A DNA stretch of 64,000 nucleotides, taken from positions 4,092,001-4,156,000 of the forward strand of contig NZ_LT629772.1 of NCBI RefSeq assembly GCF_900105385.1, in the 5' to 3' direction. The stretch is from Microlunatus soli (GTDB taxonomy: Bacteria > Actinomycetota > Actinomycetes > Propionibacteriales > Propionibacteriaceae). Each line of letters starts with the position of its first letter. Position 1 is the stretch's first letter. Under the pieces are notes generated by a model that saw only the letters and a program-made list of their open reading frames with translations, had not been told where the DNA came from and made no database searches. Below are positions 26,513 through 31,181 of this stretch, piece by piece. The position numbers and the translations under genes are program-made.

Positions 26513-26527
26513 ACAAGATGATCTTGT
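26513..26527. promoter_or_regulatory. Candidate operator palindrome upstream of biosynthetic operon
   Basis: Perfect inverted repeat ACAAGATGATCTTGT (7-bp arms around G), 59 bp before the ATG of the adenylate-forming enzyme gene. It is AT-rich compared with its surroundings. No regulator gene adjoins it. Confidence 0.45.
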
Positions 26528-26585
26528 GTCCCGCGTCCGGTGCTGTCCGGCGCGCGATCGCTATCGGGTGCGAAATGGGGGAACG

Positions 26586-28169
26586 ATGGCGCGCCGGCAT
26601 CATGGCCCGGGCCCGGCAGGTCTGCACGGTCCGGTGTCCGCGCTGCGACAATCGATCTTGAGAACGTCGGCCCGGGCGATCACCAACCTGTACGAGCTCT
26701 ATCGTGTGCATCCGGTCGTGTGGCGCTGGACCGCCCGGCATTTCCATCCCGGGTTGGCCCGGTTCGCCCGATTGAACGCCTGGATGATGTGCCAGCTCGC
26801 CAACCTCGATGTCCCTGCCTACCAAGAGCATCTGAGGGAGCACGGCTTCCGGTTCCGCTGGTTCAGCCTGGACAGCTTCCCCGAGACCGACAAGCACGGC
26901 TACGTCAGTCGATACTCAGAACCGGACCGGTGTTGGAACGGCCGGATCGAGACCGTCGGGACGGTCGTCGACGAGTCGTCCGGGTCGTCCGGCACGCCGT
27001 TCAACTGGATGCGTGGCCGGGACGAGCTGAAGGCGATCCACAACAACGTCGCCGGCTATGTGACCCTGTTGTTCGGCTCCAAGAGGCTGTTCTGCATCAA
27101 CGCGTTCTCGATGGGCGCCTGGGCGACCGGGACCAACACCGGCCATGCGATGTCCAAGATCGCGATGGTCAAGAACACCGGACCGGATCTGGACAAGATC
27201 ATCGACACGATCCGGCATTTCGGACCGCGGTTCGTGTACCTGATCAGTGCCTACCCGCCGTTCCTCAAACATCTGCGTGATCGGCTGGACAACGAGAGCT
27301 GGTTCTCCTGGTCGGACTATCAGCTGAACGGTTTCGTCGGCGGTGAGGCGATGACGGAGGGGCTGCGGGACTATGTCGAGGCCCGCTTCGGTCGGGTCTA
27401 CTCCGGCTACGGTGCCAGTGATCTGACGATCGGGATGGGTGGCGAGTCCGACGTCGCGGTCTGGCTGCGGCGTTCGATGTACGCCGACGATCGGGTCCGG
27501 GAGCGGCTGCTCGGGCCGGACGAGACGCGGATCCCGATGGTCTTCCAGTACAACCCGTTGGAGACCTATCTGGAGGTCAACGAGCACAGTGAACTGGTCG
27601 TCACTCTCAACTCGACCGCCGTGATGAGCCCTCGGCTGCGGTACAACATCGGCGATGAGGCGCGGCTGATGAGCTTGGCCGACGTGACTGCCGCGCTGGA
27701 CTTCGATCCCGAGCTGCAACGCGCCTTCCACCGGGCCTTCGCGGTGCAACGGATGCGGCTGCCGTTGCTGTTCCTGTTCGGTCGGAAGGATTCGACGATC
27801 TCCTACATGGGTGCGAACCTGTATCCGATCGATGTCGAGAACGGGCTCTACCAGGACAACCCGTACGCCGCCGCGATCGAGTCCTTCAAGCTCGCCTTGC
27901 TCGAGGGTGATGATCATGAACTGCGGCCGTTGGTCCACGTCCAGTTGCGCGCCGATGCCGAGCTGACCGACGTCCAACGAGCCGATCTCGGCCGAGCCGC
28001 CGGGCACGGCATCGTGGCACATCTTGCGTCGGTGTCGCGGGACTTCGAGCAGTCGTTGACCGAAGACCCGACGGCCGGCGACATCAGGGTCCGGGTGCAC
28101 GGCTTCGGCGAGGGACCGTTCGGCGGCCAGCGGTCCAAGATCAAGAACGTCTACCTGGTGGAGGACTGA
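26586..28169 (+). CDS. Adenylate-forming enzyme, PaaK/CapK (coenzyme F390 synthetase-like) family
   Basis: 527 residues. It should activate a carboxylate with ATP to an acyl-adenylate and pass it to a thiol, amine or hydroxyl. Visible motifs: phosphate loop VDESSGSSGTPF, the adenine/Tyr-Gly region VYSGYGASDLTIG, and YNIGDEARL with the conserved Asp that contacts ribose. Length and N-terminal helical part (LYELYRVHPVVWRWTARHF) exceed the roughly 440 residues of PaaK. The SD GGGGGAAC sits directly before ATG 26586; an in-frame GTG at 26526 lies inside the candidate operator region. It is the first gene of a three-gene operon, with 1 nt before the next start. Confidence 0.85.
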   Translation: MARRHHGPGPAGLHGPVSALRQSILRTSARAITNLYELYRVHPVVWRWTARHFHPGLARFARLNAWMMCQLANLDVPAYQEHLREHGFRFRWFSLDSFPETDKHGYVSRYSEPDRCWNGRIETVGTVVDESSGSSGTPFNWMRGRDELKAIHNNVAGYVTLLFGSKRLFCINAFSMGAWATGTNTGHAMSKIAMVKNTGPDLDKIIDTIRHFGPRFVYLISAYPPFLKHLRDRLDNESWFSWSDYQLNGFVGGEAMTEGLRDYVEARFGRVYSGYGASDLTIGMGGESDVAVWLRRSMYADDRVRERLLGPDETRIPMVFQYNPLETYLEVNEHSELVVTLNSTAVMSPRLRYNIGDEARLMSLADVTAALDFDPELQRAFHRAFAVQRMRLPLLFLFGRKDSTISYMGANLYPIDVENGLYQDNPYAAAIESFKLALLEGDDHELRPLVHVQLRADAELTDVQRADLGRAAGHGIVAHLASVSRDFEQSLTEDPTAGDIRVRVHGFGEGPFGGQRSKIKNVYLVED

Positions 28170-28170
28170 G

Positions 28171-30051
28171 GTGTACACCACGGACTTCTCCCGCACTCCG
28201 CCGGCCGGTCGCGGGCGGGCGATGATCATCGCCGAGGGGCGATCGGACGCGCGTCGTCGGGACGGCGTCGTCTGGCGTCATCGCGTCCGCGACGACGCGA
28301 TCCGTGCCGAACTGGTCGTTTTCGACACCGCCGAGCAGGCTCGCCGGGCGGCGGCCGCCCATCGTGGCCGGACCCGGCTGTTGATCGCGGAGGACCGTGG
28401 ATACTCCAACGGTGGTTGGCGTGCCGAGGACGGGACCCACGGTCTGAACGAGCGCTTCCATCCGGTCCGGACCGAGCTCCGCGACGGCCGGGAACCACCG
28501 CCGACCGGCGAGCCGGCCCGGCTCACCCGACGCCCCGTGGCCGAGCCCGCACCCCGGCAGTGGACGATCTTCGACAGCGAGTCGTTGTTTCTCGGCGCGA
28601 ACAGGTTCCGGCACCCGATCGCCTGGCTGCACACCGCCCGCTACTGGTGGGCGATGCTGCGGTCTATGTATCGGATGCCCGGCACCGTCTGGCACGGCGT
28701 CTACTGGCAGTTCCCGTTCACCCTCGGGACGGTGGCGACGTTCCGGTCCACCGACGACATGATGCGCTTCGCCCGCGTCCCCGAACATCGCTACCTGATG
28801 CAGTGGATCGCGCGAGACACCCGCAACGCGACTGCAGGCTTCATCAGGATCCACTCCGCCGCCGACCAGGACGCCGCGCAGCAGCAACCGGCCGGATTGG
28901 AGTTGCAGCGGGTCCAGACCGAGACCCAGCTGCGGGAGTTCCTCGCCGTGTCCCGCCGGGGCGACCCGGCCACGCTCGCCGTACCGCTGCTCACCGACAC
29001 CGTACGGTCCTGGTTCGCCGGTCGCGCGGCGGCGCCGGTGCAGCCGGAGCTCTATCTGGCCCGCCGCGGCGACCGCACCGTCGGCAGGACCACGATCCAC
29101 GCCGACCCGACGCTGGACGCCAAGCTCGGCACCCGAGCCACCCTGTTCGGCGCGACCTGGGCCGCGACCCGTGCCGACTACGCCGAGCTGCTGGACGCCA
29201 TCGCCGACCGTGGTCGGCGCGCCGGCCACACCGAGGCCATCGGGCCGATGTCGCTGCTGCCCAACCAGACCGGCGGGGTGATCACCTCCGGCTTCGAGCA
29301 GCCGGGCTTCTTCGACAGCCCGTGGAATCCCTCCTGGGTGCCGCAGGCCTACGCCGACGCCGGCTTCCAGGCCTGGAACGAGTCCGACACCTGGCAGCTG
29401 GACGTTGCGGCGCTACGCAGCACCGCGGACCGGATCGAGGCGCCGGCCGAGGACGAGCTGGCTGCAGCAGGGATCCGGCTGCGACCGGCCTCCCGCCTGC
29501 GATTCCGCCGTGACGTGGAGCAGGTCCGCGGCCTGCTGAACGCCTGCTTCGCGCAGTTGCCTTACTACACCGAGATCTCGCCGGCCCAGATGCGGGCGGC
29601 AACCAGTGGCCTGATCGCCCTGATGGATCCCGGCCTGTGGGTGATGGCGGAGGACCGTGACAGTGGCGCGCCGGTGGGGTTCACGCTGATGATGCCCGAC
29701 CCGGTCGACGTGCTGCGGGGATCCGGCGGCCGGATCGGTCCGCGCGAGCTCGTCCGGCTGCTCCGCGGTCGGACCGGGTCGCGCGATGTGGTCGCGATCA
29801 TCCAGGGTGTGCTTCCCGAGCAGCAGGGCCGGGGCATCTCCGGGTTGATGTGGCGACGGGTGGCCCGGCATCTGATCGACGCCGGCTACCGCACCGTACG
29901 GGCGACCTACATCGGACGGGACAACCCGGCCTCGGCGCGTTCCATCCAGCGGCTCGGTGGCCGGCCGTTGCACGGCCTGTCCTTCTATCGCCGCAATCTC
30001 GGTGATCATGCACTCGGTGATCATGGTCCCGATGATCGGACGGCGCGATGA
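28171..30051 (+). CDS. Two-part protein: monooxygenase-like N-terminus plus YghO-like GNAT acyltransferase
   Basis: 626 residues with no close named family. Residues about 1-230 hold a half with FLGANRFRHPIAW, WHGVYWQFPFTLGTVATFRS and MMRFARVPEHRYLMQW. These recall dimeric alpha-beta barrel / spheroidene-monooxygenase-like proteins, a weak resemblance. Residues about 240-615 resemble YghO-type N-acyltransferases: PELYLARRGDRTVGR, IGPMSLLPNQTGGVITSGFEQPG with SPWNPSWVPQAYADAGF, then a GNAT acetyl-CoA fold with VLPEQQGRGISGLMWR and DNPASARSIQRLGGRPL. GTG start 1 nt after the previous stop. The last codons overlap the nitroreductase ATG (ATGA). Probable role: transfer of the acyl group activated by the upstream ligase. 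Confidence 0.75.
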   Translation: MYTTDFSRTPPAGRGRAMIIAEGRSDARRRDGVVWRHRVRDDAIRAELVVFDTAEQARRAAAAHRGRTRLLIAEDRGYSNGGWRAEDGTHGLNERFHPVRTELRDGREPPPTGEPARLTRRPVAEPAPRQWTIFDSESLFLGANRFRHPIAWLHTARYWWAMLRSMYRMPGTVWHGVYWQFPFTLGTVATFRSTDDMMRFARVPEHRYLMQWIARDTRNATAGFIRIHSAADQDAAQQQPAGLELQRVQTETQLREFLAVSRRGDPATLAVPLLTDTVRSWFAGRAAAPVQPELYLARRGDRTVGRTTIHADPTLDAKLGTRATLFGATWAATRADYAELLDAIADRGRRAGHTEAIGPMSLLPNQTGGVITSGFEQPGFFDSPWNPSWVPQAYADAGFQAWNESDTWQLDVAALRSTADRIEAPAEDELAAAGIRLRPASRLRFRRDVEQVRGLLNACFAQLPYYTEISPAQMRAATSGLIALMDPGLWVMAEDRDSGAPVGFTLMMPDPVDVLRGSGGRIGPRELVRLLRGRTGSRDVVAIIQGVLPEQQGRGISGLMWRRVARHLIDAGYRTVRATYIGRDNPASARSIQRLGGRPLHGLSFYRRNLGDHALGDHGPDDRTAR

Positions 30052-31181
30052 CGACCGACCGACGGACCGCCGGCCGGTCGTCGGGGCCGGACGAGTCGCT
30101 GCTCGCCGAGCTGATCACGGTCGCTGCCTCGGCGCCGTCGGCGCACAACACCCAGCCGTGGGATCCACGGATCAGTGCCGGCGGTATCGAACTCGGCGTT
30201 GCCGAGGGGCGGACGCTGCCGGTGGGGGACGGGACCGGACGGGACACGCTGCTGGCGCTCGGAGCCTGGACCGAGGCGGCAGCGATCGCCGCCCGGCGGG
30301 CCGGCCGCGAGCTGATCGTCGACACGCTGCCGACGTTGGGCGATCCGGAGCTGATCGTCTCCGCTCGGCGCCGTGATCCGGTGGCCCGGCTGACCCTCGG
30401 CGGTGCACCCCGGCCCACCGACGATCCCGCCCGTCTCCTCGACGCCGACCTCCTCGCCGCCCGGCTCACCTACCGCGGTCCGGTCCGCCGTGCCGACGGC
30501 TTCCTGACCGCGGCAGCGACGGTCCTCCCGGACTGGGCCGGCCTGGTCCCGATCACCGCCCGGGATCTGAATCGGATGGCACTGCTCGGCACCGCCGACA
30601 CCCTCACCCGCCCCGGGGCAGTGGAGGAACTCGCCAGCTGGCTACGGCTCTCACCACGCCATCCGCAGTATGCGGTGGACGGCCTGACCGATCGGGTGCT
30701 CCGGCTGCCGCGTCCGGTGGCTGCCGTCGCCGCGCCGTTCACCCGACCGGATCGACCGCGCCGTGCCGCGGCCTGGGCCGCGCGTCGTGGCGGCGACCTG
30801 TTGCGACGACTGCTGCTCGAGGTCCCCATCGAGGCAGCCGGGGATGCCGCCGACGCGGATCATTTCACCCTCGTCGTGCGGTCCAACGAGCTGGCCATCG
30901 GGACCGGGGTCGAGCTCACCCGGGTGTTGAACTCGCCGCTCGGCCTGCCGCCGGAGGTGGTGTTCGAGACCGGCCGGGTGCTGCTGCGGGTGTGGTTGTG
31001 CGCGGCACGGATGGGTGCTGCCTTCTCGCCGCATTCGGAAGTGCTGGACTCGGCGCTGGCGCAGGGTGAACTGCAACACCGACTGGGACTCGGGCGCCGT
31101 ACGGTTCCGCTGTTCGTGGCCTCGGTCGGACGGCCGGCGGAACGTCATCCGGCTCGTTCGCCGCGCCGTCGGCTCGCTTGA
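30048..31181 (+). CDS. Nitroreductase family (Acg-like) flavin oxidoreductase
   Basis: 377 residues, the long Acg-like branch of FMN-dependent nitroreductases. The FMN-binding N-terminus is AASAPSAHNTQPWDPR. A Pro/Arg-rich middle precedes a second half with [47 protein letters not shown]. Such enzymes reduce or oxidise small molecules with NAD(P)H, and some act in peptide or heterocycle maturation. The ATG overlaps the preceding stop by 4 bp. As the third gene of the operon it is the likely redox-tailoring step. It converges on an ABC permease gene 9 bp downstream. Confidence 0.85.
   Translation: MTTDRRTAGRSSGPDESLLAELITVAASAPSAHNTQPWDPRISAGGIELGVAEGRTLPVGDGTGRDTLLALGAWTEAAAIAARRAGRELIVDTLPTLGDPELIVSARRRDPVARLTLGGAPRPTDDPARLLDADLLAARLTYRGPVRRADGFLTAAATVLPDWAGLVPITARDLNRMALLGTADTLTRPGAVEELASWLRLSPRHPQYAVDGLTDRVLRLPRPVAAVAAPFTRPDRPRRAAAWAARRGGDLLRRLLLEVPIEAAGDAADADHFTLVVRSNELAIGTGVELTRVLNSPLGLPPEVVFETGRVLLRVWLCAARMGAAFSPHSEVLDSALAQGELQHRLGLGRRTVPLFVASVGRPAERHPARSPRRRLA

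Follow-up and report, generated by a model that had tools for sequence, protein, structure and literature searches.

We analyzed a 64,000-nucleotide stretch of Microlunatus soli DNA (contig NZ_LT629772.1, positions 4,092,001–4,156,000; hereafter the window, to which coordinates given without a locus name refer) and characterized on its + strand a compact operon that encodes four enzyme functions in three genes. It comprises three intact open reading frames (ORFs): capK (26586..28169), encoding a predicted CapK/PaaK-like carboxylate-adenylating enzyme of 527 aa; gene 2 (28171..30051), encoding a predicted fusion of an ABM-like mono-oxygenase with a tandem GNAT acyltransferase, 626 aa in length; and gene 3 (30048..31181), encoding a 377-aa member of the nitroreductase superfamily (NTR) that resembles flavin-dependent oxidases (FDOs). 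The stop codon of capK ends at 28169 and the GTG start codon of gene 2 lies at 28171, leaving 1 nt between them, and the end of gene 2 at 30051 overlaps the ATG of gene 3 at 30048 by 4 nt, which confirms the junctions given in a preliminary description of this DNA. That description had placed the operon at 26513..31181; its end coincides with the end of the NTR gene, whereas its start moves to the probable capK start at 26586. Since capK is preceded on its own strand by a gene that stops 141 nt before it, and the downstream gene is oppositely oriented, the unit is probably limited to capK, gene 2 and the NTR gene. A promoter scan of the operon found none, and terminator-like sites occurred at a frequency near chance. 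In a Pfam search with the three proteins, CapK gave no match and the GNAT, af470-like and nitroreductase matches were weak and all under the cut-offs, indicating that all proteins of the operon are divergent.

By its sequence, CapK is a PaaK-type carboxylate-adenylating enzyme, a level of assignment at which synthesis of a CoA thioester and direct transfer are not distinguished. Three motifs recur across 81 cassettes (80 related loci, described below, and the window), namely DESSGS[ST]GxP (80/81), SGYGASDL (80/81) and GRxDSTxSxMG (79/81), together with a C-terminal lysine pattern (77/81); K520 is invariant in all 26 aligned CapKs. We take these motifs and the C-terminal lysine to be the ATP-binding and adenylation motifs of PaaK-type ANL adenylating enzymes, whose PaaK fold CapK shares. 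Against the PaaK equivalog TIGR02155, CapK scored 31.2 bits, under the cut-off of 646.3 bits. The true start is probably ATG 26586, rather than the GTG 26526 of the longest ORF, because the closest full-length relatives (P0102 and P0104) align from that ATG; the sequence GGGGGAA lies just upstream. In the 6.73-Mb genome we found only one CapK copy of this kind.

The AlphaFold2 model of the gene 2 product, computed from an alignment of 50 sequences, had a mean predicted local distance difference test score of 90.3 and a predicted template modeling score of 0.89. Its acyltransferase portion (aa ~239–612; 28885..30006, + strand) has the fold of a tandem GNAT N-acyltransferase: the matches listed (50 per fold search) were all GNAT- or N-acyltransferase-type entries, the best being tandem GNATs such as MshD. 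The GNAT is preceded by a putative af470/ABM-like mono-oxygenase domain (aa ~135–232; 28573..28866, + strand), which matches PF13826 at aa 144–220 with an E-value of 0.0025 and 18.6 bits, under the 25-bit cut-off; two relatives, L059 (20.3 bits) and L070 (23.5 bits), also score below it. In most fetched relatives this domain is encoded by its own gene; of the standalone ABM relatives, 21 were scanned and every one hit PF13826 at E <= 0.1, and the gene 2 domain is 47% identical to the standalone ABM of L059 (148 aa). Two histidines of the standalone ABM, His54 and His85, are invariant (21 of 21). A sequence-profile search for a solved ABM relative found none. Further upstream, aa ~15–85 (28213..28425, + strand) may be a shortened, degenerate first ABM-like copy, as by eye its ends resemble the standalone ABM (TTDFS.., GYSNG.WRAE) around a shortened middle, and the model displays a strand-helix pattern there.

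Gene 3 belongs to a superfamily whose enzymes have varied roles. The window NTR matched NF047509, the model of the Acg/Rv3131 family (FDO-B), with an E-value of 3.7e-31 and 108.8 bits, without reaching the cut-off of 199. A profile of 30 NTR relatives matched the Acg structure 2ymv (E 1.8e-18), the nearest solved structure by profile, and the window NTR shares an N-terminal PSxHNTQPW-type motif with Acg/Rv3131-type FDO-B. The preliminary description had read the operon as a trio of adenylating enzyme, acyltransferase and nitroreductase. All three families stand, but the count does not, as the af470/ABM-like domain at the N-terminus of gene 2 adds a fourth function outside the acyltransferase.

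To place the operon among its relatives, we used an alignment of 26 CapKs as query and fetched the best 80 of 202 named-genome relatives of the window CapK, which constitute a biased sample. The four family profiles drew on the window, the database and 11 ABMs and 5 NTRs taken from some of the fetched loci, whose matches are therefore in part circular; the four-profile locus scan left out L001 and L002. CapK, ABM and NTR lie in this order on one strand in all 80 fetched loci and the window, with the GNAT in place in 78 of the 80. The four functions occupy separate frames in 58 loci, ABM and GNAT share one open frame in 8 of the 80 and in the window, GNAT and NTR do so in 11, and all three are joined in L082; these fusions support joint action of the cassette enzymes. 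The matched stretches are separated by median distances of 8 to 23 nt. The layout and the conserved order support the earlier claim that the genes form a joint unit, and scattering of the genes in relatives, which the preliminary description had named as a refuting outcome, was not found in the fetched loci.

The cassette occurs in many genera of actinobacteria, but its presence is patchy. Counted from record titles, the fetched loci name 24 genera, with three loci lacking a genus name. Because these loci had been chosen by closeness to the window CapK, we also searched a class-wide sample of 394 genomes, in which CapK exceeded 500 bits in 4 (including that of the window), ABM was present in exactly these 4, and GNAT was present in these and in 2 others (one solitary, one weak). 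Within the window's family, 3 of 198 genomes gave matches (its own, G499 and one 39% relative). The genus of G221 has 26 matching genomes out of 57, and the family of G095 has 22 out of 121; among these 22, two are relatives of 37 and 43%, and at least one (G701) is incomplete. A plasmid search returned two records, a 1.1-Mb replicon carrying a CapK-NTR pair and an 11.85-Mb record that contains the entire cassette; at these sizes, neither points to spread on small plasmids. The cassette is self-contained and its flanks are not conserved: apart from the cassette genes, generic ABC ATPases were the only gene clusters (genes of at least 110 aa) present in at least 5 of 31 loci plus the window. 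Near the cassette, four of the 31 loci (L011, L013, L023 and L055) share a gene that by eye looks alpha/beta-hydrolase-like, located directly after the NTR in L011 (14709-15725).

More distant CapKs retain a single partner. We examined five of them, L095, L096 and L165 (Gemmatirosa kalamazoonensis, Gemmatimonadota), which are 41, 39 and 35% identical to the window CapK, and L161 and L162, which are 37 and 43% identical to the CapK of L059. An NTR adjoins CapK on the same strand in all five, downstream in L095 and L162 and upstream in L096, L161 and L165, while no significant ABM or GNAT match was found in the 9–19.5 kb around each. As all five distant CapKs (35–43%) have kept only this neighbor, the CapK-NTR pair looks like the core of the system. 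Six CapK homologs of ~30% (L087-L092) were rejected as members, since no NTR, ABM or GNAT match lies nearby (five of them, L097-L101, with 11.7–19.5 kb covered, and the sixth, L088, with 4.3 kb). By eye, the CapK-paired NTR of G. kalamazoonensis (L165:4649-5830) differs from that of the window in an apparent N-terminal twin-arginine (Tat) signal, SRRAF..., which suggests an exported oxidase.

The NTRs were then compared in a tree of 33 cassette, 4 pair, 10 ThiF-fused (A4) and 24 Rv3131-like (B) domains, excluding the Gemmatirosa NTR and the TyzC-type A23. Of the 81 cassette NTRs, 36 were taken for the trees, one from the window and 35 from fetched loci, and L005, L018 and L066, being split or short, were dropped. 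All cassette NTRs were located via CapK, so their linkage to CapK is no independent observation. The CapK-linked NTRs, from cassettes and pairs, formed their own clade with an ultrafast bootstrap value of 99, next to values of 100 for A4 and 99 for B. On this tree the cassette NTRs sit beside the ThiF-fused and Acg-like flavin-dependent oxidases as a separate clade; the window NTR resembles FDO-B in motif and profile, but falls below the family cut-off and outside the FDO-B clade. Trp316 is present in 32 of 33 cassette NTRs and 10 of 10 FDO-A4 domains, and in 0 of 24 FDO-B domains.

In our comparison, the closest characterized logic is that of the tyrazolone/tryptazolone pathway, which combines an acyltransferase, an NTR-type oxidase and a ThiF cyclase. 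TyzA is reported to N-acylate Tyr/Phe, TyzC (NTR superfamily, FDO subgroup) to carry out the O2-dependent desaturation of N-acyl-Tyr, and TyzB, a ThiF protein, the ATP-driven cyclization of the desaturated N-acyl-Tyr (Grigg et al, 2023; PMC10404671). Steps of these kinds have also been demonstrated for TrzA-TrzS (Kleetz et al, 2025; PMC12856293), and a related pathway has been proposed for N-acyl dehydrotyrosines (Sauer et al, 2025; PMC12479983). Like the tyz, trz and oxz loci (TyzA-TyzC-TyzB, TrzA-TrzS and OxzA-OxzB), the cassette compactly joins an N-acyltransferase, an FDO-type nitroreductase and a carboxylate-adenylating enzyme. In both, the adenylating enzyme stands next to the oxidase, with ThiF adjacent or fused to FDO in the oxazolone loci (PMC10404671; PMC12856293) and CapK adjacent to NTR, in both orders among the distant pairs. 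Unlike those loci, the cassette has a PaaK/CapK-type enzyme for ThiF, an NTR of another clade, a tandem GNAT and an extra ABM-like protein. Searches with three TrzS-type ThiF queries gave no match in the 80 loci and the window, whereas all 12 control loci matched; these queries did not include ThiF of the TyzB/OxzB kind and could miss distant types. Lacking a TrzS-type ThiF, the cassette was rejected as a member of the ThiF-type oxazolone clusters, and only a likeness in the way it works is retained. Nowhere does the main text of the Tyz paper (PMC10404671) use the words ligase, GNAT, monooxygenase or CapK, and that of PMC12856293 does not use ligase.

The stieleriacine, thalassotalic acid and kyonggic acid clusters resemble the cassette in that a nitroreductase, the proposed desaturase, accompanies an N-acyl amino acid synthase, but these N-acyl dehydrotyrosine clusters carry ThiF, and "CoA ligase" is absent from the main text of the report (PMC12479983). 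NatL2 of the nataxazole pathway, a PaaK-family enzyme, is described as forming an ester from an acyl-AMP without CoA, en route to a benzoxazole ring (PMC7204872), which indicates that a PaaK-family enzyme can condense an acyl-AMP toward a ring without CoA. In structural alignments, NatL2 and the structurally near ClxA and AjiA1 are 16–18% identical to CapK. NatL2 acts on aryl acids with the amidohydrolase NatAM (PMC7204872), whereas the partner of CapK is an FDO-like NTR. The Creative Commons-licensed literature in PubMed Central (titles and abstract openings) yielded no description of a CapK/ABM/GNAT/NTR cassette among the matches listed, in agreement with the preliminary description, which knew of no named pathway with its gene set.

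We tentatively propose, with somewhat less than even confidence, that the cassette is a self-contained pathway for a small N-acylated, oxidized metabolite that would work like Tyz, Trz and Oxz, with a PaaK-type enzyme replacing ThiF. The tandem GNAT would move an acyl group from acyl-CoA onto an amine, most likely that of an amino acid; the FDO-like NTR would desaturate the N-acyl product, consuming O2; CapK would adenylate a carboxylate, most likely that of the desaturated N-acyl product, leading to oxazolone-like ring closure or transfer to another group; and the small ABM-like protein would oxygenate the substrate or the product. These reactions, their substrates and order and the product are what we infer from the directly observed gene set, order and co-inheritance, the fold families, the retention of NTR by CapK and the lack of a TrzS-type ThiF nearby. 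CapK stays with NTR when GNAT is missing, as expected of a stand-in for ThiF. Because a PaaK-type enzyme occupies the place of ThiF, CapK and NTR are retained together and NatL2 provides a precedent, an N-acyl dehydro-amino-acid or oxazolone-like metabolite would be our best reading of the product. The narrower claim that CapK, of PaaK ancestry, works as an oxazolone (azlactone)-type cyclase, providing a second, independent carboxylate-activation route in FDO-dependent N-acyl amino acid pathways, we consider unlikely.

Several observations weigh against this proposal. Neither cassette nor pair NTRs fall in the ThiF-fused FDO-A4 clade (Rv1355c/TrzS type); cassette NTRs are about equally identical to A4 and B (means of 22 and 23%), and their profile scores FDO-B domains at 63–120 bits and A4 at 41–53 bits. 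Arg200 is present in 33/33 cassette NTRs and 10/10 A4 domains, but also in 8/24 B domains. The counterpart of TrzS Arg540, a column mapped from the R/Q spacing in one A4 homolog, is R in 10/10 A4 domains and in 0/33 cassette and 0/2 pair NTRs, and loss of Arg540 is reported to impair desaturation by TrzS. The missing Arg540 and the higher profile scores for B than for A4 argue against simply carrying the FDO-A reaction over to these NTRs. In addition, TyzA is reported to be FeeM/BjaI-like, whereas the window acyltransferase is an MshD-like tandem GNAT; "monooxygenase" is missing from the main text of the Tyz paper; two Streptacidiphilus loci (L070 and L079) have no GNAT; and acyl-CoA synthesis may be the plain role of CapK.

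That last role leads to a different order of events, in which CapK supplies the donor, an acyl-CoA or acyl-AMP made from a free aryl or fatty acid, with which GNAT acylates an amine before ABM and NTR oxidize the product. We regard this early activation as rather doubtful, given that CapK keeps NTR without GNAT in 5/5 distant relatives and in 2/80 cassettes; because CapK and NTR persist without GNAT, NTR, not GNAT, is the constant partner of CapK. Loading of the acyl donor by CapK is nevertheless nearly as likely as late activation. The route envisaged in the preliminary description, activation, attachment and then oxidation, accordingly survives as one option, but the pairing of CapK and NTR without GNAT fits a CapK acting on the substrate of the oxidase at least as well.

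The source names of the relatives point in two other directions. Phenylacetate-CoA ligase family and, for some, nitroreductase would suit a catabolic or detoxifying operon, in which CapK activates an aromatic acid like PaaK, ABM and NTR modify it and GNAT acylates an amine by-product; with no conserved catabolic neighbors in the 31 loci and the window, where only the cassette and ABC ATPases are shared by 5 or more, and with CapK so far from the PaaK equivalog (31.2 vs 646.3 bits), this seems highly improbable, and ordinary PaaK catabolism was rejected as no catabolic genes are conserved alongside. CoF synthetase, a name given to relatives by one source, and the diversity of roles in the NTR superfamily would fit a modifying system whose target, a cofactor, peptide or lipid, is altered by CapK and NTR (by adenylylation or azoline-type oxidation, for instance) and decorated by GNAT and ABM; among genes of at least 110 aa, none for a precursor, carrier or cofactor recurs beside the cassette, and we judge such a system improbable, if slightly less so than a catabolic one. 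An ordinary non-ribosomal peptide synthetase or polyketide synthase (PKS) cluster was likewise rejected, as the preliminary description had done, since no carrier, condensation or ketosynthase gene is conserved nearby in the 31 loci and the window (genes of at least 110 aa; small carriers could be missed).

The cassette itself is real, and its sequences are best described as a putative variant of the acyltransferase-oxidase-adenylating-enzyme logic. If the proposed pathway is correct, dozens of cultured actinobacteria, among them Brevibacterium, Micromonospora, Streptomyces and Cellulomonas, would produce a new class of small acylated metabolites from a short operon that is easy to clone, a PaaK-type enzyme would do the job that ThiF has in the recently discovered mycobacterial oxazolone lipids, and a third clade of flavin-dependent oxidases would gain a testable role. 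It would also mean that a pathway can lie hidden behind labels like phenylacetate-CoA ligase, nitroreductase and hypothetical protein. Were CapK indeed a PaaK-derived cyclase, the CapK-FDO pair, present in Actinomycetota and one Gemmatimonadota genome, would found an acyl-oxazolone/dehydro-amino-acid class parallel to ThiF-FDO, with the cassettes that add ABM and GNAT as an oxygenated subclass.

Members of these families also occur outside complete cassettes. The GNAT family is not strictly tied to the cassette, because G375 has a solitary GNAT (46%), without CapK, ABM or NTR within 19 kb, and G057 encodes a 30% relative of the cassette GNAT. The solitary gene (L113:8809-9900) has, by eye, fabD-, fabH- and acyl-carrier-like genes ~6 kb away, and a 30% relative of the GNAT lies amid ORFs that by eye look ketosynthase III-, acyl-carrier-, ketosynthase-, AMP-ligase- and PKS-like (L114:5898-16963). 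In G701 (L163:6207-8881), the profiles match only CapK positions 15–326, ABM positions 113–142 and parts of NTR, and this cassette has probably decayed. The window genome encodes a second FDO-like NTR away from the operon (G000:C1:695960-696499), which scores 142.8 bits against NF047509 over part of its frame.

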